Source of the DNA: a virus | Length of the DNA stretch: 23,498 nucleotides | Virus record (IMG/VR): IMGVR_UViG_3300050821_017518 | Location: 1 to 23,498 of that record | Strand: one strand, 5' to 3' | Shown: positions 2,598-22,568 of the stretch, piece by piece | How the letters are laid out: every line of letters begins with the position of its first letter | Numbering within the stretch: the first letter of the stretch is position 1 | Notes under the pieces: generated by a model | The model's database searches: none | Told to the model about the DNA's origin: nothing | The model's input: only the letters and a program-made list of their open reading frames with translations | Program-made: the position numbers and the translations under genes

Positions 2598-2911
2598 GCA
2601 CCACTGAGATTTCGTTCGAGCTGCTGCCGTGGCAACGATCAAAGTTGGTCGAGTTCGTCGATCGATTCGACCGGACATACGGCGATTCATCGTTTAACCC
2701 GCAAGACGAGTTCAGTGATGCCGGACTCATCGCCTTGGCGCTGAGAGCGGCGGAACTTCTTGATTTCCGGGGTGAGGCGCTTGAACGGTTCTTTGAGCAT
2801 GAATTCGCGCTGAGCGGCATTAGCCAAGGCGAGCTGGAAACGATGCTGTCGATCGCCCTGCTGGTTGACGCTGAGCGAAGGGTTCGCTGTGCGGCTGGAG
2901 GAAGGAATTAG
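2594..2911 (+). CDS. Unknown 105-aa helical protein (paralogue of 277-498)
   Basis: The ATG overlaps the previous stop (ATGA). The N-terminal half (LLPWQRSKLVEFVDRFDRTY, then G-D-S-S-F-N-P-Q-D-E-F-S-D) is shared with the shorter gene at 277. The second half is an acidic helical region (LALRAAELLDFRGEALERFF, then EHEFALSGISQGELETMLS). The family is not recognised. Two copies in one phage region, both directly downstream of a DNA-binding or DNA-cutting gene, suggest a role tied to DNA transactions, but this is guesswork. The next gene has an in-frame alternative start inside this one. Confidence 0.65.
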   Translation: MSTTEISFELLPWQRSKLVEFVDRFDRTYGDSSFNPQDEFSDAGLIALALRAAELLDFRGEALERFFEHEFALSGISQGELETMLSIALLVDAERRVRCAAGGRN

Positions 2912-2954
2912 TGGCGAGTTTTGTTTTCCTAAGAAAGCTAAGAAACAGCAGTCC

Positions 2955-3908
2955 ATGTCGGCATTGAGTTCAACGGCTCGAAATAAAACTGGAAGACCGA
3001 CCAAGAAAACGCCGGCGCGCTGCCAAGCAATTCTCAAAGGGATCGAATCAGGTTGGCCTTATGTTGTGGCGTGCGCTTCTGCGGGCACCACTTACGAAAG
3101 TTTCAGTACGTGGTGTCGTACTGACGAGCATTTTGCGGCACAGGTTGCTATGGCGGAAGCTGTAGCGATCCGTACTAATCTGGAACTGATTCAGGATGCG
3201 GCGCGCGATAAAATCTGGCCCGCGGCGGCTTGGCTTTTGGAACGCCGGCATCCCGAACTTTTCTCCAGGCCTGAGGTACAGTTGAATCTGATCCAGCAAA
3301 ACAACATCAACACTCAGGGATCAAACGGTCACAGCCTTGAATCAATTATCGTTTCGGACCTGGAATTCTTGAAACTACGCGAGCATGAGAATTACAAGCA
3401 TCGGGCGCATGAACGACAGGCACGCGAGGTCGAAGCTGAAGTTGTTCCGGTCGATCTAAGCGGCACCTTGGCAGTTCAAAGTCATCCAGGCGCCTCCGTG
3501 ATTAGCGAAACGCAAGCTGAAGCAACACAGCGCAGAGTCAGGAAGGCGGATTCGAAGATCGACGAGCTGTTGCGAACCAAGCAGGCTGGCAACGGTAACG
3601 GAGCTTCGCTCGAGTCAACCCCTTCCCAGATGGTGCTCGCGCCGATCGTGATGCCGGCTGAACCCGTGCCGACGCATTGGTGGGCGCAGCTCAGCCAAGG
3701 CAGCGGAGAACGTGAGGTTGAACGCGCGACGGCGATCAAGCTTGTTCGGACAATTTTGGCAGATGTGTTTGGCCAATTGCGCTCGCAGAACACTCCGGTG
3801 GAATTTGTTCCAGGCGCAGCGATCTTGCTGCGCGATGTGCACTCGGCAATCCAGGCCCTTTGCGGGGCAGATGGCTGGGCTGCGCTGCGCAGGCGCGGGG
3901 AGGTTTAG
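2955..3908 (+). CDS. Small-terminase-like HTH protein with long C-terminal extension
   Basis: 317 aa from the ATG at 2955; an alternative start at 2865 would overlap the previous gene by 47 bp. Residues about 11-100 carry a homeodomain-like HTH of the phage small-terminase type: T-G-R-P-T-K-K-T-P, Y-V-V-A-C-A-S-A-G-T-T-Y-E-S-F-S-T-W-C, and the hallmark PAAAWLLERRHPELFSRPEV. Such proteins recognise phage DNA for packaging. After this come a Gln/Asn-rich strand (LNLIQQNNINTQGSNG), a charged helical stretch and the segment RRVRKADSKIDELLRTKQ. A separate domain of about 80 aa starts at W-W-A-Q-L-S. A second, shorter protein at 22101-22568 shares the WLLERR motif, the QN-rich strand and the DxKI-x-x-LL segment. 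No large terminase is adjacent, so a different DNA-binding role is possible. Confidence 0.65.
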   Translation: MSALSSTARNKTGRPTKKTPARCQAILKGIESGWPYVVACASAGTTYESFSTWCRTDEHFAAQVAMAEAVAIRTNLELIQDAARDKIWPAAAWLLERRHPELFSRPEVQLNLIQQNNINTQGSNGHSLESIIVSDLEFLKLREHENYKHRAHERQAREVEAEVVPVDLSGTLAVQSHPGASVISETQAEATQRRVRKADSKIDELLRTKQAGNGNGASLESTPSQMVLAPIVMPAEPVPTHWWAQLSQGSGEREVERATAIKLVRTILADVFGQLRSQNTPVEFVPGAAILLRDVHSAIQALCGADGWAALRRRGEV

Positions 3909-3910
3909 CG

Positions 3911-4189
3911 GTGGATGCGCCGGGGCGTTATCGAAGGGCGTTGCTGCGATATCTCCGAGGCGAGCTGGCCCGGCTCAAGGATCCTGCGCTCGACGAACGA
4001 GTCGCCTCGATTGTGGCCGCATTCGACCAGGCCGAAGCCTCTGGCCACGAGCTGAGTCCGTGGATAATGGGCGCCGCCGAGCAGTTGCAGCGTGAGCTTG
4101 CGGAGCGGCAAGCGGAACGCAGCAGGCTGATCGCGGAGCTGGACCGCTGGATTGAGTTCCGAGCCGGCAAGGCGCTGGAGAAGAACTGA
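3911..4189 (+). CDS. Unknown 92-aa helical protein
   Basis: I choose the GTG at 3911 because a strong Shine-Dalgarno (GGGGAGG, 3897-3903) sits 7 bp upstream and the previous gene ends at 3908. The longer frame from 3860 would overlap that gene. The product is helical and highly charged: RYRRALLRYLRGELARLKDP, then E-R-V-A-S-I-V-A-A-F-D-Q-A, then a coiled-coil-like QLQRELAERQAERSRLIAEL and WIEFRAGKALEKN. No family is recognised. It is the last intact gene before the tnpB remnant. Confidence 0.65.
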   Translation: MDAPGRYRRALLRYLRGELARLKDPALDERVASIVAAFDQAEASGHELSPWIMGAAEQLQRELAERQAERSRLIAELDRWIEFRAGKALEKN

Positions 4190-4257
4190 CTCTGATCGTT
4201 TCCACAGAGTGAGCAAACTGTTCAGCACGCGAGCAAAAACTCGCATTTCCGGGGCGA

Positions 4258-4859
4258 ATCGTCTACGCTCCGAAGCGTTGTGGACCAAACGCTTGGGTGA
4301 GAAGATCGCTAATCCGCGCTTTCTCAAGGAAGAGCTGCCAGCACTGCGCCGGGCCCAGCGTTCTTTGGCGCGCAAGAAGAAGCGCAGCAATAACCGCAAG
4401 AAAGCCAAGTGCAAGGTGGCTCGCATTCACGCTCGGGTGGCCAACTGCCGACGTGAACACCAACACAAAGTTTCCAATGATCTGATTTCTCGCTACGGCA
4501 AAGTCGCTGTGGAAAGCTTGAACGTGCAAGGCATGGTCAAGAATCACAGGCTTAGCCGAGCGATTGCCGATGTAGGCTGGTCGGGCTTCATCGACGTACT
4601 GACCCACAAAGTTGTGAAGACTGGTGGCGAGGTAAAACAAGTGTCTGCGAACTACACGAGTCAGGAATGCCCGGAGTGCCACGCAATCAAGCCAAAGACG
4701 TTGGCTGAACGCGTACACCGTTGCCCCTGTGGATTGGTGATAGATCGGGACCACGCTAGTGCGCTTGTAATCCTTGAGCGTGCTTGGCCTGGAACGGGCC
4801 AGTGGAGCGTAACGCCACCAGTAGGTAGCGTGCTCCAAGAAGCTGTCTGCTTTAGCTGA
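4258..4859 (+). pseudogene. tnpB: tnpB 3' half (inverted), RuvC-II/III and zinc finger
   Basis: The frame from EKIANPRFLKEELPALRRAQ onward is a canonical TnpB C-terminal half. It has the Lys/Arg-rich helix (RSLARKKKRSNNRKKAKCKV), RuvC-II with its Glu (VAVESLNVQGM), the zinc finger (C-P-E-C-H ... C-P-C-G) and RuvC-III with its Asp (IDRDHASA). The end QEAVCFS is a natural TnpB C-terminus, so the 3' end is complete. Upstream of EKI, inserting one base between 4261 and 4262 restores RIDLRSEALWTKRLGEKI, equal in length to the canonical G-I-D-L-G-L-x-A-L-A-T-L-S-x-G-E-K-I. The catalytic RuvC-I Asp codon has therefore lost a base. There is no start codon or N-terminal half on this strand. Confidence 0.85.
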
Positions 4860-4862
4860 CGG
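4845..4862 (+). repeat. IS605-type right-end hairpin
   Basis: GTCTGCTTTAGCTGACGG: an imperfect hairpin, stem GTC-GC/GC-GAC around a TTTA loop with one T-T mismatch. It overlaps the last codons and stop of the tnpB 3' half (Q-E-A-V-C-F-S-stop), as right-end hairpins of this family often do, and is followed by AGTGTTCAC, which may be the element tip. In pre-inversion orientation it lines up with the 5408-5423 hairpin at 16 of 18 positions. Confidence 0.65.
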
Positions 4863-4875
4863 AGTGTTCACAGCC

Positions 4876-5381
4876 TGCTCGCACGCCAGCACTACAAACC
4901 ATTTGTCGGCTTCGCGTTTAAGCGAGAGCGTCTTGATCGTTCCTTCAACTTCGCGATGAAGGCAAACACGGATCGTGCCGACATGTTGAACCCGCAATCG
5001 ATTGCATTTAAGCCGGATGCCGTTGCCATGCTTTGGGAAAAGGATCGAGTCGAATCTGTCCGTGGATTTAAACCGCGGATAACCCGGCTCTTGCCCAGCT
5101 TTTACCCGGCGAAAGAAATTCTCGAATGCCCGGTCGAGACGGCGCAAGGTGCCATAAGAGCTATTGCAATTGATTGCCGCAAACCAGGAATTAGTTTTGC
5201 GTTCATCCACCAACCAGGCGCACTGATCCGAATAGCTGCGCGAGATTTTCCATTCATCCCAGAACCAGCGGCGTTGACCCAGCGCGGAATTATAAAGCCG
5301 CCTGTGCGTTTCAAGGGCAATTCCCAGCTCACGCTCTTGGTTGGCGTTGGTCCAAAGACGAAATTTATAGGCTCGAAACAC
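4876..5381 (-). pseudogene. tnpB: tnpB 5' half, truncated by inversion
   Basis: From a GTG at 5381 the minus strand encodes a typical TnpB N-terminus: F-R-A-Y-K-F-R-L-W-T-N-A-N-Q, then LETHRRLYNSALGQRRWFWD, LDRAFENFFRRVKAGQEPGY, PRFKSTDRFDSILFPKHGNG and KREADKWFVVLACEQ. After the C-E-Q at about 4876 the frame leaves TnpB homology and reads the antisense of the inverted 3' half until 4263. No RuvC motif is on this piece. On paper, flipping the 4229-4882 segment joins A-C-E-Q to K-L-A-F-P-G-R-I and then to the 3' half, with one missing base. The product is certainly not an active nuclease. Confidence 0.85.
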
Positions 5382-6687: not shown

Positions 6688-6765
6688 GTGGCGACTAAGA
6701 ACGGCATTCCCCCGCCAGCTAAAGCAGACGGTCCCCTGCCTAAGATTTTATGGCCACGACACTAG
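6688..6765 (+). CDS. 25-aa leader peptide overlapping the giant gene start
   Basis: A GTG at 6688 follows a good Shine-Dalgarno (AAGGAG, within 6672-6677) after a T-run. The frame encodes 25 residues (A-T-K-N-G-I-P-P-P-A-K-A-D-G-P-L-P-K) and stops at 6763-6765, 16 bp past the ATG of the 1560-aa gene, which has no Shine-Dalgarno of its own. Translational coupling through this leader is a plausible way to start the giant gene. The I-P-P-x-A-x-A-D-G-P-L core recurs in the same frame at 5399-5435 before the 408-aa gene. Confidence 0.5.
   Translation: MATKNGIPPPAKADGPLPKILWPRH
6712..6731 (+). repeat. Third copy of the hairpin motif, beside the 6750 start codon
   Basis: CCGCCAGCTAAAGCAGACGG shares AGCTAAAGCAGAC exactly with the reverse complement of the tnpB right-end hairpin at 4845-4862, and differs from the copy at 5406-5425 at three positions. 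It lies inside the 25-aa leader. It could be a solo relic of the same IS or a phage sequence that the IS end resembles. Confidence 0.6.
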
Positions 6766-9700
6766 AGGATGCGATCAGACGACGGCAATTGGAAGAGGCT
6801 TTAAGTCATCTCGACACCGGGGCTGCTCCTCTCGACACGACTGATACGAGCACTCCAGCGCCTGAAGAAGTTCCCTCTGGCAGCGATTATCCGGCTAGTG
6901 AAAGCGGCCAGAAGATCAAGGTTCCCAAAGAAGTCAAAGGGGAATACGGCGACTGGAACAAGTGGTCAACCTTGGATCAAGCCCCAGCTGGCCACATCGA
7001 TCTGGCACCGCCCGGACCTACACCAACGCCGGAATCCTCCTTCGGTCCAGATCTCCAGACCGACCCGGAAACCGGCACCCGATATGTCACGGACCCAAGC
7101 GTTGCTTCTGGACTTGTTCCGTTCGCCGAGCTCGCCACTGAAGCAGATAAGGAAAAATTCAAGCCAACTGACGTCACGCTCCCAAAGGTGGTCAGTGAAG
7201 CGACCGCACCGGTCACTTATCCCACGATTGCCGAGGATCAACCTTTATCCCTTCCGCCCGACCCGAGAGAGATTTGGCAACAGTATAGAGATGGTAAAAT
7301 CTCTAGAGATGAAGCGATTGCCCAAGCTGCGCAATTACAAGAACAAGTTAAACGCGCGACCTTAGTCCAGTTTCCCAAAGGCGAGCCGGCGACCATGCCG
7401 TGGCATCCGGCGGGGCAGAAGCCGGTGCCAGGATTCGTCGAGGGAAGTCAGAACGCCATCCTTAACCCCGCGGCTGGGGTTATCCCACCAACGCCAGCGC
7501 CAGATAAATTAACTCAAGTCGAGCGTGGCGAGCTAGTCAGTACGCCTTCAGGGACCGCACCAAAGGCCGTGGGTGTTGCTGCTCCGGTCACTTATCCGAC
7601 CATCGCGGAAGATCAAGGAGCGCCAGGGACACCGCCAAAGGTGCAACCGGCACAGCCTGTAACAGGTCCGCAACCGAGCGGGCCTAAGGCGCCTGGAACA
7701 CACACCGAGCTCGCGCCTCCGGGCCAGATGGATTTGCGGCCAGATGAGCCTCAGACAGTTCAGCCCGCTGTCCAGCCAACACCCTCCACTCAACCGCCGT
7801 CTACTGCACAACCAGCAGTGAAGCCGGCCGCTGATGACTGGAAGACTTGGACCACTGTCGATGGCACGCCGGCTGAACCGCCGCAAGTAACGACGCAACC
7901 TTCTGGTCCAGCACCATCCAGGGATGACCTGAATATTAATACGGATCATCCGGCAGTAAATTATTATACTCCTGGTCGTGGGAAAAATGGGATTCAAGGA
8001 ATTGTTCTGCACGCCAGCGACGGGCGTGAAGGTGGGGACATCAATACTCTTACTGGTCACGATAAAGATCACCAGGTTTCATCCAATTATTACGTGACTC
8101 GTGATGGCCGTATTTACCAGTTCGTTCCCGACGGCGACACTGCTTGGCACGCTGGAAGAAATTTAGTTCCGGTTCACGGTAAGGTTTACGACAACTCGAA
8201 TACGATTGGGATCGAGCAAGAACATTACGATGGAAAAGAGGAGTGGTCTCCGGCCCAAGTTGCAGCTACGGCCAGGCTGGTGGCAATGCTCAAGGCCAAG
8301 TATGGTCTGAAAGATAACGATATCATTGGGCACTCCGACATTGCGCCGGAACGCAAACAGGATCCGTACAATTATCCGTGGAAAGAATTCCGTGCGGCGG
8401 TCAATGGCGCGGTTCCCGATACGACAACCACCAGTACCTCCCAGACTGGGGAGGTCGCCTCACAACTAGATAGTCAGTTAGGGGGATTATTAAAGAATAA
8501 AGGCGCGGTCTTTGCCGAGATGGGGGCAAAGTACAACGTCAATCCGAGATTAATTGCCGCCATTGCCATGGAAGAAACTGGCAACGGCACCAGTCATCTG
8601 TTGGCTACGCGCAACAACATCGGCGGGATTACCGGCCCAGGGCATACAGGGAAGGGCGGCGATTACATGTCCTATGATTCGCTCGATGAAGGAATCGAGG
8701 CCGCAGCCAAGCATTTGCGAGAGCGCTATCTCGACCAAGGGCTGACCACAATTAAAGATATCGGCGCAGTCTGGGCACCTCCCGACGCTGAGAACGATCC
8801 GCAAGGTACGAATAGGCAATGGCCTGGAGCAGTTACCAAGTTTTATGCGGCTCTGGGTGGCACGGGTGACCTGCAAGGCAAAGTAGCAGCTCAAGCCAAA
8901 AAACAAGATTGGGAATCCTGGGCAACGTTATCACCGGCCGAAGAGACTGCGGCCCAAACAGCGGCACGAGCTGATCAACAAAAACAGATAGGCGTCCTTG
9001 ATGATCTGAACCGGAGCACCCAAAATCCGGGGCAGTTATGGAAGACACTCAATCAGCCTATCCCAGGCGTATCCGACGCCAACCGCAAAGCCTACCAAGA
9101 TAATTTCAAGCAACAGCTGACCAAGTACGCGCAAGATCACTACGGTGAGCCTGATCCTGACAAAGCGTTTAATAGAGCGGTGGGCGATCCGAGTTTTGGT
9201 GCATTTGGTCAAGATTTAATACGAGGGGCTATCAGTGTTGCCGGACAAACAGATGTCGGGCTGAATCAGGCGGCTAAATACAGCGATTTTAATATCTTGG
9301 ATGGTTTTGCCAAGGTGCTTCATCCTGAATCGGATGGGATGGGGAGAGCGGCGTTCATCAAGACGATTACGGATATCAAAGATCCGGGCGATCGGTCGCG
9401 AATGATTGGTAAGCTGTGGGCTAGTCTGGATCCGCAGAAACAAGCGTCAATTGATATCAACGGATTAGTGCAAAGCGCTCAGAACGTATCGAGTCCTCAA
9501 TATCAGGCATCACAAAACGCGGATATTGCGAATAAAAAAGCATTAGTAGAAAAACTGGTCACGCCTGATCCGTCGCTGAAAGGGACAATTGGCGAGTGGG
9601 GTACTCAAGGTGGCCAAGTGTTGGCAAATATCGCAATGACTGGATTACCTAAAATTCTCCAGACAAGCGCATTTGCTGGTCAGATTTATGGGGCTACGAT

Positions 9701-11432
9701 GGATCGGATAAAACAGGAGCATCCTGATTGGACCGATCAGCAAATATCGTCGAATGCAGCAACGAGTACGGTTGCGCAATTGGCACCGCAAGAAGCTCTC
9801 ATGGCGCTGTCGCATGGTATCCTGGCGCCGTTGTATAAATGGATGGGTGCAGCGGCAAATCCGGTGGCCCGTTTCGGGATAGGCGGCGGGATCCATTTAG
9901 CGACCGGAGCCGCCGGCGGGGCGATCATGCAAGCCGGGGCGAATATTGCCGAGGGTCAACCGATCGGGCAGGATGTAGGTCAAGCGGCAATAGGTGGTGT
10001 GATTCAGGCTGCGCCTTTTGCGGTTCATGGCGCCATTCACGGTGTTTTATCTCCTCCTGAGGCACCGACGAAAGCGCCTCTGGGACAGGAGCCAGTTACG
10101 CCTCCGCCCGAGACTGGGCCGGCTGGCGGAGCGGTGCGCGGCGCGCAGCCCGAGACGATGGCGACTGGTGGCCAGGAGGCCACTGCTGGCGCAGAAGCTG
10201 CATCTGCGCAGCCGATAGAGGGCAATGCTCCAGTGACGCCTCCTTCGCCCGTTGTTACTCCTCCTGTGGTTACTCCTATTCAAGGTCTTCATCCTGATAA
10301 CGAAATTAAGGTGGGGGTAAATCCGTTAACTAAAAATCTCCAGATTTATCTTTACGGAAGAGAAGGGCAGCGAGGTGCTTTACCATTGTGGGATGGAGTA
10401 ACCAGAGAAGAGGCTGAGGCACTGGCAGAAAATTTACGGCAACGCGGGACAGGTGGTCAATACGTCGATCCCGGCCTTTTAAATAAAGCATTCAACCGTG
10501 CGCGTGAACGATCCGGTCAATCTGTTAGTGAAGCCAGGGAAACCGCGATTAACGCTATCTTCGGGCCGGAGAAGCCAGCGCCAACATCTACAAGTACAGC
10601 GTCGGTTACTCAGGAAGCTGTAGCGCGCCGAGCGTACGAACTGTACGAGGAACGGACAAAATCCGGACAACCTGGAACCGCGGCGGACGATTACACTCAA
10701 GCCCAAAAAGAATTGAGTCAAGCGACCGAACCGCCTCCGGCTACCGTGAGCGAGGCCGAACCGATAAAGAGCGCTATTGCCAACCGGTATGTTCAGGAAC
10801 GTATGGCGGCAGGCGAACTTGGTCAGATTGATCCCAGCGAGGGGCAATCTACTGAAGACATGGTGAAACAGGGTTTGCAGATGAGCAGGGATCAAAGGGA
10901 GGGGCTGATTAAAAATTTCATGAAAGGTCAAGGCGGCGACCTTGACCAGCAAGGCGCTGCCATCAGAGCCAGGGAAGCTATCTTGAGCGAGCAGGCTCGG
11001 AGTGCGTCCAGGGCAGCAAATGCTGATCCGACTAACCCCCAGCTACAGTCTCAAGCTAAGGTGGCATCGGATGCAGTGACTGCTTTTCATAATGGACCAA
11101 TCAAGAAATTTAAACAGGTATGGAGCAATGCTGGCAGGGGTTTGCAACGGGAGATCCCGCTTGATTACACGACGTTGAACGGAATGAAAGAAGCTTATCT
11201 CAAGGGGCAAGGGAAGGGGAACGAAGCGCCGCCAGAGTTAGAGCCAAAATTAAAGAAAATGGCTGATACGGTAAGCAAATCCGCAGACACAGAACGCGCG
11301 GCGATGAACAATTATGGTAAAGAGGTTGGGGATTATGTTGAAAAAAAATCTCGTGGAAAAGTTATTCCGAATGACGATCAGATCCGTACCCGGCTGATGG
11401 AAATAATGAAACATCTGCCTTGCCGAACATAA
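6750..11432 (+). CDS. Giant virion-type protein with Amidase_2 and GH73-like peptidoglycan hydrolase domains
   Basis: 1560 aa. Residues 1-390 are Pro/Thr-rich and disordered, with repeats: A-P-V-T-Y-P-T-I-A-E-D-Q at 153-164 and 278-289, and D-W-x-x-W-x-T at 68, 363 and 720. Residues about 395-555 are an Amidase_2/PGRP domain (N-acetylmuramoyl-L-alanine amidase). It has zinc-ligand candidates H421 (IVLHAS), H528 (IIGHSD) and D538, plus the AWHAGRN motif at H467. Residues about 577-703 look like a GH73 glucosaminidase: YNVNPRLIAAIAMEETGNGT with Glu608/609, then the NNIGGI segment. A helical part and Ala/Gly-rich hydrophobic segments (about 955-1100) and another low-complexity linker follow. Such proteins are usually injected or tail-tip lysins that open the cell wall during entry. 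The end (…K-H-L-P-C-R-T) looks frameshifted into the next ORF. Confidence 0.85.
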   Translation: MATTLEDAIRRRQLEEALSHLDTGAAPLDTTDTSTPAPEEVPSGSDYPASESGQKIKVPKEVKGEYGDWNKWSTLDQAPAGHIDLAPPGPTPTPESSFGPDLQTDPETGTRYVTDPSVASGLVPFAELATEADKEKFKPTDVTLPKVVSEATAPVTYPTIAEDQPLSLPPDPREIWQQYRDGKISRDEAIAQAAQLQEQVKRATLVQFPKGEPATMPWHPAGQKPVPGFVEGSQNAILNPAAGVIPPTPAPDKLTQVERGELVSTPSGTAPKAVGVAAPVTYPTIAEDQGAPGTPPKVQPAQPVTGPQPSGPKAPGTHTELAPPGQMDLRPDEPQTVQPAVQPTPSTQPPSTAQPAVKPAADDWKTWTTVDGTPAEPPQVTTQPSGPAPSRDDLNINTDHPAVNYYTPGRGKNGIQGIVLHASDGREGGDINTLTGHDKDHQVSSNYYVTRDGRIYQFVPDGDTAWHAGRNLVPVHGKVYDNSNTIGIEQEHYDGKEEWSPAQVAATARLVAMLKAKYGLKDNDIIGHSDIAPERKQDPYNYPWKEFRAAVNGAVPDTTTTSTSQTGEVASQLDSQLGGLLKNKGAVFAEMGAKYNVNPRLIAAIAMEETGNGTSHLLATRNNIGGITGPGHTGKGGDYMSYDSLDEGIEAAAKHLRERYLDQGLTTIKDIGAVWAPPDAENDPQGTNRQWPGAVTKFYAALGGTGDLQGKVAAQAKKQDWESWATLSPAEETAAQTAARADQQKQIGVLDDLNRSTQNPGQLWKTLNQPIPGVSDANRKAYQDNFKQQLTKYAQDHYGEPDPDKAFNRAVGDPSFGAFGQDLIRGAISVAGQTDVGLNQAAKYSDFNILDGFAKVLHPESDGMGRAAFIKTITDIKDPGDRSRMIGKLWASLDPQKQASIDINGLVQSAQNVSSPQYQASQNADIANKKALVEKLVTPDPSLKGTIGEWGTQGGQVLANIAMTGLPKILQTSAFAGQIYGATMDRIKQEHPDWTDQQISSNAATSTVAQLAPQEALMALSHGILAPLYKWMGAAANPVARFGIGGGIHLATGAAGGAIMQAGANIAEGQPIGQDVGQAAIGGVIQAAPFAVHGAIHGVLSPPEAPTKAPLGQEPVTPPPETGPAGGAVRGAQPETMATGGQEATAGAEAASAQPIEGNAPVTPPSPVVTPPVVTPIQGLHPDNEIKVGVNPLTKNLQIYLYGREGQRGALPLWDGVTREEAEALAENLRQRGTGGQYVDPGLLNKAFNRARERSGQSVSEARETAINAIFGPEKPAPTSTSTASVTQEAVARRAYELYEERTKSGQPGTAADDYTQAQKELSQATEPPPATVSEAEPIKSAIANRYVQERMAAGELGQIDPSEGQSTEDMVKQGLQMSRDQREGLIKNFMKGQGGDLDQQGAAIRAREAILSEQARSASRAANADPTNPQLQSQAKVASDAVTAFHNGPIKKFKQVWSNAGRGLQREIPLDYTTLNGMKEAYLKGQGKGNEAPPELEPKLKKMADTVSKSADTERAAMNNYGKEVGDYVEKKSRGKVIPNDDQIRTRLMEIMKHLPCRT

Positions 11433-15498: not shown

Positions 15499-15668
15499 AT
15501 CAAACTGCTAATCTTGAACGCGCGGCCGAACATGTTTGGGACGCCATCAAACTAATCAAACGCGAGGAACATCCGGAGATCCGTGCAGCTCTGGAAAGCG
15601 TCTTCGACAGAATCGACAACCAGGTTGACTGGATCGACGAGCAAGTCGCTTCCCAGGAGGACAAGTGA
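15495..15668 (+). CDS. 57-aa acidic helical protein
   Basis: It starts with an ATGA overlap on the membrane-peptide stop. The product is helical and acidic: LERAAEHVWDAIKLIKREEH, then A-L-E-S-V-F-D-R-I, then a Trp/Asp-rich end (VDWIDEQVASQED). It is not recognised. Its stop overlaps the GTG of the ATPase gene, and the Shine-Dalgarno for that gene (AGGAGG) lies inside it, so expression is linked to the recombination module. Confidence 0.6.
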   Translation: MNQTANLERAAEHVWDAIKLIKREEHPEIRAALESVFDRIDNQVDWIDEQVASQEDK

Positions 15669-16513
15669 ACGACGAGCAAGTTTTGACGATTGAGCCGCCG
15701 AAGCCGATTACCCAGGCTAACCCGTTTGCCGAGAGGGCTTCCCTGGAGGAAGCGAAGCCGAAAAAGGCTAGCCTGCTGGATCTGGTCACTACACGCAAAC
15801 GCCGCCGGCCAGTGCTAGCGATGCTTTACGGGCCTCCGGGCGTAGGTAAATCGACCTTTGGCGCCAGTGCGCCAAATCCGATCTTTATTCCATGCGAGCG
15901 CGGGCTCGATCAGATCACGGTGCCAAAGTTTCCGACGCCCAAGACACTGGCCGAGTTCGGCACTTACTTAAATGCTGTCGATACCGAGGAGCACGATTAT
16001 CAGACACTGATTGTCGATACGGCTGATGCGCTTGAACTCCTGATCTTTGATGCCGTCTGCAACGAAGGTAATGTCAAATCAATTGAAGACTTCGGCGGCG
16101 GTTATGGAAAGGGATTTACCAGAGCTCGCGAATACTGGGCGCGTCTTTTGACGCGGCTGACGGCGTTATCAGAACGGATGAACGTCTTATTGGTGGCTCA
16201 TAGCCATTTGCGCACGGTCAATGATCCGATGTTAGCGACCGCGTATGACATTCACGAACCGAAAATCCAGGCCAAATCGATCGAGTTAATCCGCCAATCG
16301 GTTGACCTGATCATGTTCGCCCGGATCCAAACCTCCGTCGTCAAGGATGGGCCCAAGGCGCGCAAGGGGCGCGGTTTGATTGGCGACGATCGGGAGATGT
16401 ATACCCAGCCGACGAGCGGCATTGAATGCAAGAACCGTTTCAACCTTGAAAGCCCGATGGAGTTTAACTGGGCCACCCTGCAAGCAGGGATCGACAACTT
16501 TTACAACAAGTAG
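15665..16513 (+). CDS. RecA-like (AAA_24 / Sak4-type) recombination ATPase
   Basis: 282 aa; GTG start with a strong Shine-Dalgarno (CAGGAGG) and a GTGA overlap with the upstream gene. Walker A is GPPGVGKST at residues 56-64; Walker B is the hydrophobic strand ending L-I-V-D-T-A-D at about 114-119. The sensor-like strand MNVLLVAHSH and the downstream basic R-K-G-R-G-L-I segment fit the AAA_24 family. Its best-known phage members (Sak4) are RecA-like single-strand annealing or exchange proteins. The next gene encodes an SSB-like protein and the one after that but one a Cas4-like nuclease, a standard phage recombination trio. The family is confident; the exact activity is inferred. Confidence 0.8.
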   Translation: MNDEQVLTIEPPKPITQANPFAERASLEEAKPKKASLLDLVTTRKRRRPVLAMLYGPPGVGKSTFGASAPNPIFIPCERGLDQITVPKFPTPKTLAEFGTYLNAVDTEEHDYQTLIVDTADALELLIFDAVCNEGNVKSIEDFGGGYGKGFTRAREYWARLLTRLTALSERMNVLLVAHSHLRTVNDPMLATAYDIHEPKIQAKSIELIRQSVDLIMFARIQTSVVKDGPKARKGRGLIGDDREMYTQPTSGIECKNRFNLESPMEFNWATLQAGIDNFYNK

Positions 16514-16519
16514 AAATTT

Positions 16520-17014
16520 ATGAGTTCAATCTATCGCTATCAAGAACCAACGGCACGCACTTCCAGCGTGCTTCCAGCCGGCGATTATATCGCGGTGATC
16601 AGCCAAGTAGAGGAGCCTTACGAAAAAGGCGGCAAGCTAATTCTTAAAACCACGCTAGCTATTCAACCGAGCGGCACCACGGTGTTCTATTATCCATGGG
16701 CAGGGCACACCACGGCTGGCGAATATCGCGACTCAATCGGCGAGCTGCTCTTTGCCGCCAACCGTGCTCCGGATAGCGGGGAAGAACCGAATTGGGCGAA
16801 GCTGGTGGGCGCTAAAATCAAAGTCCGCCTGAAAGTTGAGCCTGATCAGATGGGGATTGATCGCAATTCGGTTCACTACGTCCACACGCCGAAGAGAGCG
16901 GACACGGTGAAGCCGACGGAGCAGAAATTTTCGCAGAGTGAATTCCTGAAAGCGCGCGGGAAACAAATCGAAGCCTCAGGAGGTGAACCTGAGCCAGATA
17001 ACATTCCGTACTGA
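16520..17014 (+). CDS. Single-stranded-DNA-binding-like protein (DUF669-type)
   Basis: 164 aa. Strand-rich core: LPAGDYIAVISQVEEPYEKG, then G-K-L-I-L-K-T-T-L-A-I, and later AKLVGAKIKVRLKVEPDQMG, typical of the OB-fold-like phage proteins (DUF669/SSB-like) that accompany Sak4-type ATPases. The C-terminus is acidic and ends E-P-D-N-I-P-Y, strikingly like the D-D-I-P-F tip with which bacterial SSB recruits partners. It is therefore likely to coat ssDNA and bring in the recombination or replication enzymes encoded beside it. It starts 6 bp after the ATPase stop. Confidence 0.7.
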   Translation: MSSIYRYQEPTARTSSVLPAGDYIAVISQVEEPYEKGGKLILKTTLAIQPSGTTVFYYPWAGHTTAGEYRDSIGELLFAANRAPDSGEEPNWAKLVGAKIKVRLKVEPDQMGIDRNSVHYVHTPKRADTVKPTEQKFSQSEFLKARGKQIEASGGEPEPDNIPY

Positions 17015-17020
17015 ATAAAA

Positions 17021-17188
17021 ATGAAGAATAACCCACCAGCATTTATACCCGATTTCAGTATAGACCCGTTTGAACGGGAGCTTGCTTATTGGGTATCAGA
17101 GGCGCGCTCTCGTCACCTCCTTTCTTTAGCCCAACAGATCGCCCTCTTAGAAAAATGGAACGCGCTCTGGGATAAAGCGATCGAGTAA
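17021..17188 (+). CDS. 55-aa unknown helical protein
   Basis: ATG at 17021, 6 bp after the SSB-like stop. The product is M-K-N-N-P-P-A-F-I-P-D-F-S, then acidic and aromatic helices (PFERELAYWVSEARSRHLLS, then LEKWNALWDKAIE). It is not recognised. Position between the SSB-like and nuclease genes, with 2-6 bp gaps on each side, makes it part of the same operon. Confidence 0.6.
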   Translation: MKNNPPAFIPDFSIDPFERELAYWVSEARSRHLLSLAQQIALLEKWNALWDKAIE

Positions 17189-17190
17189 AT

Positions 17191-18294
17191 ATGACTAACG
17201 AACATAAAGGGTTACCTACCGCTTCGCCGTGGCGTCGTCGCGAGCTGTGCGCTGGCTCTTATCAGCTTGAGCAGGAGGCCGAACGGATTGGCCAGAGCGC
17301 GCATCTGGAGAGCGACGATGCGGCGAGCGGAAATCGGATTCACGCTTGGCTGAACGGTGAAAAGCCAGAGCTCACCGACTCGGAGGCCACGACCGCGGCC
17401 AACCTGAAAGAGCGTGGCGACTGGCAGATTGAGCGAATCTTCGAGGGGCGGGAATATCAGCAACTGCGCGAGAAACGGCTCTGGCTGCATCTCGATGGCA
17501 AGCCCGCGCTCTCGGGCCGGTTCGACGTGGTCAGCTACACGAACGAGCTGGCGCTGGTGCAGGATTACAAAACGGGTTTCCGCGAGCCGGACGCAGCCGA
17601 AGACAACGCGCAACTCCGCGTTCTCGCGGTCTTGATTGCGCTGAATCTGCCGACTGTGAAAGAGGTCATTGTGCAGATCGTCAGCGGGCCATTTGGCATC
17701 ACGGAAGCTCGTTACAGCCTCGCTGAGCTCTCGGCGGCCTACGAGGATATCGTCAAGACCCTCAGGGCGATCAATGCGCCAGACGCGCCGTTTAATCCAT
17801 CGCCTGAGGCCTGCAAGTTCTGTGGTGCCAAGCTGATCTGTCAGGCGATTAAAGATCAGGTTGTTAAACCACTGACCAAACTGCAGATGAGCGCGCTGCC
17901 TCTAGACGGACCACGTGCGGCCAAGCTGCTCGATGAGGTCGAGATTATGGCCGGCTTACTGAAAGAGATAAAGAAGTTCTACGCGGCCCAGTTCGAGGAT
18001 CCGGCGTATTCGATTCCGGGCTATGCGATGGTGCCGGGTGCATTGGTGCGTGAAGTCGTTGATTGGGACGCCGCACGATCCCGGCTGGCCGAATTCCTGC
18101 CCATTGAGCAGTTGAACAGCGCGGCCGACTACCGGCTGGGCGAGCTCGAGAAATCGCTCGGCAAAGCGCTCAAGCTGAAAGCGAAAGAGGCCAAGGAAAA
18201 GATGAATCAAGTTCTCAAGGGACTAGTAACAGAGAAGCAGAACGCTTCGAGCCTCAAGCGGGTAAAGGGCGAAATGGCGACAATAAACAACTGA
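17191..18294 (+). CDS. Cas4-like PD-(D/E)XK nuclease (DUF2800-type)
   Basis: 367 aa. Motifs in order: an N-terminal S-P-W-R-R-R-E-L-C20-A-G-S; H51 within G-N-R-I-H-A-W-L; the catalytic G-R-F-D112 and V-Q-D125-Y-K127-T-G of the PD-(D/E)XK fold; and a cysteine knuckle C208-K-F-C211-G-A-K-L-I-C217. One upstream plus three downstream cysteines is the arrangement that binds an Fe-S cluster in Cas4/AddB-type nucleases. A Lys-rich helical C-terminal part follows. In phages this group processes DNA ends for recombination, which fits the ATPase and SSB-like genes upstream. All catalytic and cysteine positions appear intact. Confidence 0.8.
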   Translation: MTNEHKGLPTASPWRRRELCAGSYQLEQEAERIGQSAHLESDDAASGNRIHAWLNGEKPELTDSEATTAANLKERGDWQIERIFEGREYQQLREKRLWLHLDGKPALSGRFDVVSYTNELALVQDYKTGFREPDAAEDNAQLRVLAVLIALNLPTVKEVIVQIVSGPFGITEARYSLAELSAAYEDIVKTLRAINAPDAPFNPSPEACKFCGAKLICQAIKDQVVKPLTKLQMSALPLDGPRAAKLLDEVEIMAGLLKEIKKFYAAQFEDPAYSIPGYAMVPGALVREVVDWDAARSRLAEFLPIEQLNSAADYRLGELEKSLGKALKLKAKEAKEKMNQVLKGLVTEKQNASSLKRVKGEMATINN

Positions 18295-19514: not shown

Positions 19515-20507
19515 GTGAACAGCCAGATCGAGCGCATCAAGTCGAGCCTTTCGATAGCCGCCGTCTGGAGTCATCTCGGCCTGCGCGGTTCTTGCGGCAA
19601 AGAATGCCGCTCACCCTTCCGCGACGACAAACGCGCCAGCTTCAGCGTCTACCGTCAAGATGGGTGGGAACGCTGGTGGGACCACGGATCTGCCTCAGGA
19701 GGAGATGTCATCGATTTCTGGGCCCGCGCCAAGCAGATCAGCGTCAAAGAAGCAATCGAGGATATCCTCGCCTCGATGCCGCATCTAGGCGGCTCCGTAA
19801 AGGCCCCTAATCGCCCGCCTGAGGCGTTTTGCGCGCCGAGCGGCATAAGATGGCCTCCGGATATCAGAATGCCTCAGGAAGAGGAATGTCGCGCTTTAGC
19901 CGAGCTCCGGAGTCTTTCCCCTGAGGCATTCTTCCTCGCCGGTCGTTTGGGCACCCTCAAGGTCGCCACCATCTATAACCAGAAATGCTGGATCATCACC
20001 GACTGCAATGCACGTTGCGCCGAGGCCCGGCGCTTTGATGGCGCGCTCTTTCCCAACGGCAAGAAAGGCTTCTGTTTGCCGGGGAGCAAAAAAGACATGC
20101 CCATCGGCCTCCAAACCAGCAATCCGCAATTCGATGCCCTTGACAACCTGCTCCTGGTCGAAGGCATGCCCGACTATTACGCCGCCCTCCAACTCGCCTT
20201 AGGCAGTGAAATCTCTTTCCGCCCCATAACCATTCTAGGCGCCAATATCCATGTACTAAATCCCTCTACAAACCAGTACCTACGGCAAAAAAACATCCTG
20301 TTGACATGTCATAACGATCCCCAAGGCCAAATCGCACTATCCAAGTGGGTTAAAGAACTCTATCGCCTCGGGGCAAAAAGTGTCGTCAGTCAAGCCCTCC
20401 CATTTCTCCATGACGACCTCAACGATTTCCTGCAAAATCCAGGGCCCGATCAACCCCTCGATCTCTTGAAAGGATTCAATGCCACTGGAGGACGCTCAAC
20501 ACCATGA
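19515..20507 (+). CDS. Zinc-finger/TOPRIM DNA primase
   Basis: 330 aa from a GTG. The N-terminus follows the CHC2 primase zinc-finger plan: IERIKSSLSIAAVWSHLGL, then C27-G-K-E-C31-R-S-P-F-R-D-D-K-R-A-S-F-S-V, then W-W-D-H57-G-S-A-S-G-G-D-V-I-D-F. The usual C-x-x-C pair after the W is replaced by W-D-H-G, so zinc binding may be altered. The TOPRIM-like part has LLLVEGMPDYYAALQL (near residue 210; Glu of the VEG motif) and ILLTCHNDPQGQIALSKW (near 262; Asp). It should lay primers for phage replication. It overlaps the helicase gene by 29 bp, and a heptamer array follows downstream. Confidence 0.75.
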   Translation: MNSQIERIKSSLSIAAVWSHLGLRGSCGKECRSPFRDDKRASFSVYRQDGWERWWDHGSASGGDVIDFWARAKQISVKEAIEDILASMPHLGGSVKAPNRPPEAFCAPSGIRWPPDIRMPQEEECRALAELRSLSPEAFFLAGRLGTLKVATIYNQKCWIITDCNARCAEARRFDGALFPNGKKGFCLPGSKKDMPIGLQTSNPQFDALDNLLLVEGMPDYYAALQLALGSEISFRPITILGANIHVLNPSTNQYLRQKNILLTCHNDPQGQIALSKWVKELYRLGAKSVVSQALPFLHDDLNDFLQNPGPDQPLDLLKGFNATGGRSTP

Positions 20508-21519
20508 ACCGCCATCGCCACCGCCATGGTTTAAAATTCAAAGTACGCTTGATCTTCCCACCGAAAAACAGCCTGTCATTATCGAGGGACTATGGCGTCA
20601 GGGTGAAGTCCTGCTTCTGGGCAGTCATGCCAAAAGCTGGAAAAGCTGGAACCTCATGGATCTGTTTTTCTGTGTCGCAAACGGGATGCCTTACCTTATC
20701 TGGAACAAAGGCACTCATTCAGGAAAAGTCTTGTATATCGACATGGAGCTTACGCAAGCTACAATCAGAGAACGGTTTGAATCAATTCAGGCGTCTTACG
20801 GAGTCGGTAATCTGGCCAATATCGACATCCTTTCACTCCGCGGCATCTCAGAATTCAAGTGGAAACAATTCCAACAGCTCAAAGATCATATCGAATCCGG
20901 CAAATACACCGCCATCGCTTTTGATCCGACTTACAGGCTCCTGGCCGGTTCCAATATGAGCGAAAACGATACCGGTGTGATTACCGAACTCATGAATACC
21001 GCCACCAATCTTGCCACCAGTTCTAAATCTGGCGTTGCTCTGCTCCAGCATTTTTCCAAAGGGGAGCAGTCCAACAAAGAAGCCATCGACGCTTTTAGCG
21101 GTTCAGGGGTTTGGGGCCGCGCTCCAGACAATCTTTTACTCTACCGGCAACATGAAGCCGAAAAATCTTTCACCGTTACCGCTTACCTCAGGGATTGCGA
21201 AGGTGTGGACGAGTTTGCCGTCACTTACGAAAAACCAAGGTTCAAAATAAACGCCACTCTCGATCCGGACGATCTCAAGAAACCTGCTCCCAGAAATCAG
21301 AAGAAATTTACTGTCGATGATCTCTGCCGCGTCATCGACGACGGCGAAAACATCTCCTTCGATATTCTCAAACGCCGCCTCGGGTGGAAAAAACGCACCC
21401 TCGAGCGCCGCATCAACGAAGCCAAAACCCAAAACCTCGTCAGCCTCAGGGTAACAGATGACACTTATTTCCTCACTTCTTCCTACCTTTCCAAAGCCCG
21501 AAACGGCCATCCATTTTGA
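20479..21519 (+). CDS. RepA-type (AAA_25) replicative helicase
   Basis: 346 aa. The order is the RepA-like one: L-L-L-G-S-H-A-K-S-W-K-S-W (Walker A region, residues 45-57), VLYIDMEL (84-91), AIAFDPTYRLLAGSNMSEND (Walker B), VALLQHFSKGEQSNKEAIDA and FSGSGVWGRAPDNLLLY. A C-terminal winged-helix region follows (FTVDDLCRVIDDGENISFDI, then LKRRLGWKKRTLERRI). The Walker A Gly just before the Lys is Trp here (K-S-W-K-S rather than K-S-G-K-S); I cannot say how common this is in the family. With the primase it would form the replication unit, and its stop codon runs into the first ACCGCCA heptamer of the downstream array. Confidence 0.8.
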   Translation: MPLEDAQHHEPPSPPPWFKIQSTLDLPTEKQPVIIEGLWRQGEVLLLGSHAKSWKSWNLMDLFFCVANGMPYLIWNKGTHSGKVLYIDMELTQATIRERFESIQASYGVGNLANIDILSLRGISEFKWKQFQQLKDHIESGKYTAIAFDPTYRLLAGSNMSENDTGVITELMNTATNLATSSKSGVALLQHFSKGEQSNKEAIDAFSGSGVWGRAPDNLLLYRQHEAEKSFTVTAYLRDCEGVDEFAVTYEKPRFKINATLDPDDLKKPAPRNQKKFTVDDLCRVIDDGENISFDILKRRLGWKKRTLERRINEAKTQNLVSLRVTDDTYFLTSSYLSKARNGHPF

Positions 21520-21700
21520 CCGCCAACCGCCAACCTTTAATTTGGCGGTAGGTGGCGGTGCTGGCGGTTGGGGTACCTCCAAGTTGACCGCCAAATCGCC
21601 TTATAAGGAAATGGCGGTAAAGAAGTTCCCTTATAAGGCCATTTGTCTGTCTAGTCGCAAGCTCCAACTTGGCGGTTACCCAACTTAAGGCTGACCGCCA
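21519..21700. repeat. Nine-copy heptamer array TGGCGGT/ACCGCCA, candidate replication origin
   Basis: Five TGGCGGT (21543, 21553, 21562, 21612, 21670) and four ACCGCCA (21519, 21526, 21587, 21694) lie within 182 bp. The flanks are partly conserved (TTGGCGGTnA, TGACCGCCA). Two CCTTATAAGG palindromes sit inside the array at 21599-21608 and 21629-21638, plus a GGTACC. ACCGCCAA at 21526-21533 can pair with TTGGCGGT at 21542-21549. No ORF crosses the block credibly. Position directly after a primase/RepA pair suggests iterons of an origin; operators for a local regulator are the alternative. Confidence 0.75.
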
Positions 21701-21714
21701 GCGCAATACAACGT

Positions 21715-21978
21715 ATGAACACAGAAACAAATCTCTCAATCCAGCTTTCTCCAGAAGTTCAACTCAGTCTCTTAACCCAAATCACTTCAGGCCTTCTTGC
21801 CTCAGGTCATTTCACTGATGGAATTGAGCGCGGCGGCAATCCAGGTGGTGAACAAATTATTCGCGGCGTCTATACCAACGAAAATAACAAGAGAGTTCAC
21901 TATCTCGCTGTCGAGGAAGCCGCTTCTCTCATACTTTCGAAATTGATTCAGTCCGTAGAGGAGGATATCAACCGGTAA
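21715..21978 (+). CDS. Unknown 87-aa protein
   Basis: 87 aa: a Ser/Leu-rich N-terminus (NLSIQLSPEVQLSLLTQITS), a Gly-rich middle (ERGGNPGGEQIIRGVYTNEN) and a helical end (AVEEAASLILSKLIQSVEED). No family is recognised. It starts 14 bp after the heptamer array, so its transcription could be controlled by whatever binds there. A hairpin with an A/T tract follows its stop. Confidence 0.55.
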   Translation: MNTETNLSIQLSPEVQLSLLTQITSGLLASGHFTDGIERGGNPGGEQIIRGVYTNENNKRVHYLAVEEAASLILSKLIQSVEEDINR

Positions 21979-22100: not shown

Positions 22101-22568
22101 ATGCCAAAGCTCGGCCATCCAACCAAGCTCACCCCTGTCTTAGAACGTAAAATTGCAGAGTGTTTCTTCGACGGCTTGACTGATTCCGAGACTGCTTTGC
22201 TCTGTGATATCTCTACTAAAACTATCCAATTAGCACGCCACGGTGACAGATTTCCACGTATCAAAAAAATCGAATTGGATCGTAAACGCTTCTACGTGGC
22301 CAAAATACGTGACGGTGACAATCGCGACTGGCCGCGCATCGCTTGGTGGCTCGAACGCCGTTGGCCAACCGAATTTGCCAAGCCTGAGGTGCAGTTGCAA
22401 ATCAACACAACGAATCAAACTGTCAACAATACGCTTATCGTTACCGCCGAAGTAGCGCACGGCATTTCATCGCGTGTCAAAGAGGTGGACGCCAAGATCG
22501 AGCGCCTGCTCAAAGACAAACGCGGCTCAAACGGCAACGGTCATCACCCTGAGGCAAACGGCAAATGA
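22101..22568 (+). CDS. Second small-terminase-like HTH protein (paralogue of 2955-3908)
   Basis: 155 aa. G-H-P-T-K-L-T-P, then KIAECFFDGLTDSETALLCD, I-S-T-K-T-I-Q-L-A-R-H, and the hallmark RIAWWLERRWPTEFAKPEVQ, make the same homeodomain-like HTH plan as the 2955 protein. Both proteins then carry a QN-rich strand (LQINTTNQTVNN here) and a segment VKEVDAKIERLLKDKRGSNG followed by a Gly-Asn-Gly stretch. The longer copy has an additional C-terminal domain that this one lacks. There is no Shine-Dalgarno before the ATG. It is followed by an ATGA overlap into the coiled-coil gene array. Packaging or regulatory DNA binding is inferred from the family. Confidence 0.65.
   Translation: MPKLGHPTKLTPVLERKIAECFFDGLTDSETALLCDISTKTIQLARHGDRFPRIKKIELDRKRFYVAKIRDGDNRDWPRIAWWLERRWPTEFAKPEVQLQINTTNQTVNNTLIVTAEVAHGISSRVKEVDAKIERLLKDKRGSNGNGHHPEANGK

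Follow-up and report, generated by a model that had tools for sequence, protein, structure and literature searches.

The origins of SaPI and PICI elements lie directly 3' of the gene of the initiator helicase and are read by the C-terminal domain of that helicase; they consist of multiple short, element-specific iterons, and a primase gene adjoins (PMC7581432, PMC6092414). The Cch2 helicase of SCCmec binds, via its C-terminal domain, direct repeats located just downstream of its own gene (PMC7581432). In RSF1010, hairpins at ssiA and ssiB direct priming by the primase of the replicon (PMC4434180). The SaPI/PICI Rep-ori is the closest working precedent for the phage locus described here. The alpha protein of P4 unites primase and helicase in one polypeptide and carries a C-terminal origin-reading domain that acts on short iterons, with ori and crr as separate sites. 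PMC6092414 refers to alpha and the site it recognizes.

The locus resides in an IMG/VR virus record of 23,498 nucleotides, probably a fragment of a virus, which was analyzed over its whole length (the window). Its replication genes are followed by an array of short repeats, which the sequence-only reading had put forward as a candidate iteron origin:

15665 to 18294, + strand: genes of a Sak4-like AAA_24 ATPase, an SSB-like protein and a PD-(D/E)XK exonuclease, forming a replication/recombination block whose order is conserved in relatives
19515 to 20507, + strand: DnaG-type (CHC2 zinc ribbon) primase, overlapping the helicase start; weak but consistent Pfam and PHROGs matches
20479 to 21519, + strand: RepA-type (AAA_25, RecA-fold) helicase, the proposed initiator; AAA_25 match
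21310 to 21477, + strand: C-terminal winged-helix domain of the helicase in the predicted structure, the proposed iteron reader
21519 to 21702, no strand: iteron array with nested inverted repeats, the proposed replication origin
21519 to 21532, − strand: tandem iteron pair ACCGCCA-ACCGCCA; its first copy overlaps the stop codon of the helicase gene
21543 to 21568, + strand: three direct TGGCGGT iterons, spaced by 10 and 9 bases
21567 to 21684, no strand: outer inverted repeat with arms at 21567-21586 and 21665-21684 (20 nt, 85% complementary)
21575 to 21582, − strand: tenth iteron, degenerate (one mismatch), TTGGAGGT, overlapping GGTACC
21587 to 21593, − strand: iteron ACCGCCA, located 5' of both CCTTATAAGG palindromes
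21599 to 21608, no strand: palindrome CCTTATAAGG, copy 1
21612 to 21618, + strand: iteron TGGCGGT between the two palindromes
21629 to 21638, no strand: palindrome CCTTATAAGG, copy 2, the pairing partner of copy 1 within the large hairpin
21670 to 21676, + strand: iteron TGGCGGT
21694 to 21700, − strand: last iteron, ACCGCCA
21705 to 21717, + strand: AATACAACGTATG border of the next gene, whose start codon it includes; L121, L008 and L005 have a similar one

Exact TGGCGGT/ACCGCCA heptamers occurred nine times at 21519-21700, five of them forward (starts at 21543, 21553, 21562, 21612 and 21670) and four reverse (21519, 21526, 21587 and 21694), precisely as counted in the sequence-only reading. 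The two identical palindromes and the GGTACC site (21573-21578) that it had listed were also present, as was the overlap of the first ACCGCCA with the helicase stop (TGA, 21517-21519). The heptamer was not equally common elsewhere: the entire 23.5-kb window, which is the whole virus record and sets the scope of this count, contained 16 copies, nine of them in the array, as compared with 3.0 ± 1.6 (maximum 8) in shuffled windows. No 7-mer exceeded four copies per stretch in a 260-base scan outside the array, while the array stretch had nine, and such an array occurred only once in the window. The palindrome CCTTATAAGG was found twice in the window, both times within the array, and never in shuffles. 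The repeats are specific, clustered beside the gene of the proposed initiator and enriched over background, as is characteristic of iteron origins.

The assignment of the genes preceding the array to a primase and a RepA-type helicase was supported by Pfam and PHROGs matches, which were weak for the primase, and for the helicase also by the predicted structure. The only domain match of the helicase was AAA_25. Its AlphaFold model (pLDDT 83.5) matched RSF1010 RepA (1olo) in a Foldseek search with a target TM-score of 0.70 at 3.1 Å, the best target TM-score among the listed matches, which also included 1nlf and 1g8y. By its fold, the protein appears to be a RepA-type helicase, predicted to be hexameric. 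The C-terminal part, which lies outside the RepA-like core, folds in the model as a winged helix resembling the DNA-binding domains of IclR, MarR and ArsR with weak E-values, and a Pfam search with this domain returned only weak HTH matches. A gene of a VRR-NUC-like protein is also located upstream of the helicase in the replication block. A scan of ten proteins, from Sak4 to the right, detected no separate RepC.

By analogy, the array would work like the SaPI/PICI and RSF1010 systems, while belonging to neither. As in SaPI/PICI, it starts at the helicase stop, immediately 3' of the proposed initiator gene, a primase gene lies beside the helicase gene, and the short iterons are multiple and differ from element to element. 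The iteron word correlates with the winged helix of the helicase (see below), which makes the tail a putative reader. In contrast to SaPI/PICI, the element is a tailed phage and not a satellite, the helicase is of the RepA/RecA-fold AAA_25 type and not of the DUF927 or D5/Primase_Cterm type, and the center of the region is occupied by a long iteron-armed hairpin, where SaPI/PICI have an AT-rich stretch flanked by iterons on both sides. With the oriV of RSF1010 (IncQ) the locus shares the RepA helicase fold, origin hairpins and a replicon-dedicated primase. However, RSF1010 has a separate RepC, whereas the winged helix of the window is fused to the helicase; the RSF1010 iterons are about 20 bases long, and those described here have 7-9 bases; and its primase is RepB', not a DnaG-like protein. 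The likeness to P4 consists in the short iterons and in a helicase with a C-terminal reader (a proposed one in the window), but the helicase belongs to another family, and primase and helicase are separate proteins. The SCCmec Cch2 system also has repeats downstream of the helicase gene with inverted repeats beside them; there, however, the helicase is of the D5 type, the iterons are only three and of 5 bases each, and the inverted repeats are dispensable for binding. The closest homologous arrangement was found in phages of Streptococcus, Bacillus and Paenibacillus with 'repA' primase-helicases (Javan85, BCJA1c, Vadim). Their helicase is homologous to that of the window (about 34% identity in Javan85) and its gene is directly followed by an array of a phage-specific word, although the helicase is fused to the primase and has a shorter HTH tail. 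In the records of these phages that we inspected, the array carried no origin annotation.

A search of viral contigs with the helicase sequence alone returned no relatives, but searches with Sak4 and the helicase followed by alignments yielded 66 distinct helicase loci. A single locus was found in genome contigs, in a Verrucomicrobia MAG, and the plasmid search gave one weak match. Gene order was conserved across the related loci. All of the 22 closest distinct loci had an array and/or an iteron-armed hairpin after the helicase gene, at the helicase stop in 20 and displaced in two, in agreement with the origin proposed for the window. In the two displaced cases, L121 and L140, the lack of an array was only apparent, as an iteron-like or hairpin region is present there with a displacement of about 150-250 bases. 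About 20 related environmental phages carry the array at the equivalent site, and repeats follow the helicase gene also in cultured phages of Streptococcus, Bacillus, Paenibacillus, Enterococcus and Faecalibacterium and in one streptococcal satellite. The satellite phage Javan594 of Streptococcus (L191), which encodes a distant helicase homologue, has a dense GTTAAT-type array of 13 sites after the gene (2700-3030). In a more distant marine clade with primase-helicase fusions of about 665 aa no array followed the helicase, so that not every member of the wider family shares the arrangement.

In 44 loci the array started a median of 9.5 (about 10) bases after the helicase stop. In a calibrated motif search, the post-helicase stretch outscored each of 30 control windows from the same locus in 38/44 loci; 30 of these 44 were IMG/VR loci picked partly because their arrays had already been seen. 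Among the 14 cultured-phage loci, which were chosen before their arrays were seen, except for L178, which was inspected first, the stretch exceeded all 30 own-locus controls in 13. Neighboring iterons on the same strand were 9-11 bases apart in 51/170 cases, about twice the 26 ± 4 expected from random placement (maximum 39 in 500 trials). The usual layout in close relatives was two or three direct copies followed by a long hairpin with the forward word on one arm and the reversed word on the other, and the outer stems differed in sequence between phages but retained their complementarity. The mixed orientation and embedded palindromes, in which the sequence-only reading had seen a specific architecture, are part of a layout that is conserved across phages while the word changes.

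The word itself was lineage-specific. It was, among other examples, GTCCGATAA in L005/L133, TGTGCCA in L115, GTCGACA in L116, GTGTCAAAA in L120 and L089, GGTTCAAAA in L122 and L124, TGACAAAAC in L123, CTACTCCAA in L139, and GTCCAG in L141. Reading of the word by the helicase tail would predict similar words wherever the tails are similar. We compared iteron similarity with winged-helix identity, given the identity of the core, by a partial Mantel test, which may be overly liberal for loci with a shared phylogeny, and obtained r = 0.25 (p = 0.0005) for 40 loci. The partial correlation was 0.24 both for the 29 IMG/VR loci (p = 0.003) and for 19 close relatives (p = 0.005), and 0.22 (p = 0.012) after a near-duplicate had been dropped. 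Conversely, core identity given the winged helix correlated with the iterons at about 0 in the 40-, 29- and 19-locus sets. In these correlations the word appears to follow the winged helix and not the ATPase core. Individual pairs showed the same pattern: the cores of L115 and L119 are 40% identical, and both loci combine the word GTGCCA with SKRTFERRL as the recognition segment; L089 and L120 combine GTGTCAAA with STFDRRL. Judged from these comparisons, the likely iteron binder is the helicase, via its C-terminal winged helix, rather than an HTH/RHH protein encoded nearby.

The array stretch of the window is a nest of inverted repeats. It includes an R-R-F-F inverted repeat (21520-21555), a large hairpin with arms at 21586-21611 and 21626-21651, and an outer hairpin closed by GCTGGCGGT (21560-21568) and ACCGCCAGC (21694-21702). 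Its folding z-score versus shuffles was -6.3 as DNA, and it formed the most stable fold of its locus, as was also the case in about half of the loci tested. The hairpin with the most pairs in any locus was that after the helicase of L113 (7011-7160), with arms of about 55 bases and 48 pairs. The middle of the window array (21619-21669), which is hairpin sequence with two iteron groups around it, was only slightly AT-rich (57% AT). The AT palindromes, suggested earlier as possible melting sites, look more like hairpin apices. A CTWWAG motif was present at the apex of 11/44 best hairpins, as compared with about 4% of 14-base windows, but as this pattern was picked after inspection we treat it as a lead only. 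The GC-skew check proposed for the origin was uninformative, as the skew was negative on both sides of the array with no switch there.

We conclude that the array is very probably the replication origin of the phage, recognized by its own helicase; readings as an RNA, a terminator, an operator or a packaging site fit less well. If transcription running out of the helicase gene produced a structured RNA here (a terminator, an attenuator or a small RNA), this would account for the strong fold as RNA (z = -6.4) and for the inverted repeats kept in relatives. However, in stems found without favoring G-U, the mismatches were 8 G-T, 17 A-C and 28 others, that is, without the G-U excess on the transcribed strand that is expected of transcript-level structure, so that the array looks like a DNA feature. 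In addition, copies outside the stems bear the same word as those within them, Rfam contained no matching family, and no terminator-like site was found in the array, which makes this reading very unlikely. Mixed-orientation repeats and a DNA-binding tail would also suit an operator through which the winged helix of the helicase, or another phage regulator, controls the replication operon or the following genes. Iteron initiators often autoregulate, and the array closely precedes the next gene, which starts at 21715 behind a conserved border. Nevertheless, we regard the operator reading as unlikely: the array follows the replication genes instead of preceding them, a search of 21300-21900 for sigma-70-like promoters found none, up to 13 copies and a long hairpin far exceed the usual need of an operator, and the proposed reader domain is part of a replicative-type helicase.

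The terminase small subunit (TerS) encoded just downstream (22101-22568) could in principle read the array as a packaging (pac) site, and a TerS-like gene does follow the array in the window, L005, L008 and L092. In L007 and L094, however, the array stays at the helicase while another gene is next, in Streptococcus, Bacillus and Enterococcus phages the next genes are hypothetical or encode a nucleotide hydrolase or a resolvase, and the word follows the helicase tail. As the array accompanies the helicase and not TerS, we reject this highly improbable reading. Finally, GCTGGCGGT...ACCGCCAGC resemble terminal inverted repeats, as if the array were a functionless remnant, either of low complexity or of a mobile element (MITE- or REP-like). 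This is barely credible given the unrelated words at the equivalent site in dozens of phages and the single such array in the window.

For the origin, we infer the following course of binding, loading, priming and origin activity. The RepA-type helicase would bind the nine exact heptamers and the degenerate copy in double-stranded DNA through its winged helix, with same-strand sites in the family often about one helical turn apart, and would assemble as one or more hexamers beside the long inverted repeat, whose arms carry iterons in opposite orientation. Melting or extrusion of the hairpin, with AT-rich apices at CCTTATAAGG, would then expose single-stranded DNA, onto which the helicase could load and on which the adjacent DnaG-type primase could start synthesis; the relation of primase and hairpin is proposed by analogy.

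To our knowledge, the origins of most environmental phages are unknown. This origin variant is apparently widespread and unannotated, and in the open-access literature we found no paper describing the type. More tentatively, phage origins of this kind may form a large class that has escaped annotation. In this class, a self-recognizing RepA-type helicase would act on short iterons in a long hairpin with a partly conserved CTWWAG-like apex, the hairpin would serve as the loading structure for helicase and primase, and winged helix and word would co-diversify, leaving relatives unable to share origins; we consider this possible but would not presume it. If the array is indeed the origin, then in any phage with this helicase the sequence directly downstream of the helicase stop would reveal both the origin and its recognition word. 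Winged helices paired with their iterons would form a natural series of data from which to study how winged helices read DNA, and could also be used for testing origin incompatibility between phages.

Downstream of the array, the window encodes a small protein without an assigned function, followed by the TerS-like protein. A conserved (A)ATACAACG(C/T)..ATG border leads into the next gene in the window, L121, L008 and L005, and the arrays before this border differ. The window encodes a 1560-aa virion-type lysin protein as well as terminase small subunits, and is thus not a small satellite island. The 1560-aa protein (6750-11432) contains an amidase and a glucosaminidase domain. The two terminase-small-subunit-like genes are different, although both belong to phrog_4102, and lie near opposite ends of the record (2865-3908 and 22101-22568). 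A TnpB/OrfB (IS605) gene is apparently split by an inversion, which may be real or an assembly artifact, with its N-terminal part on the − strand (4263-5381) adjoining its C-terminal part on the + strand (4152-4859), the latter comprising OrfB_IS605 and Cas12f1-like TNB domains.
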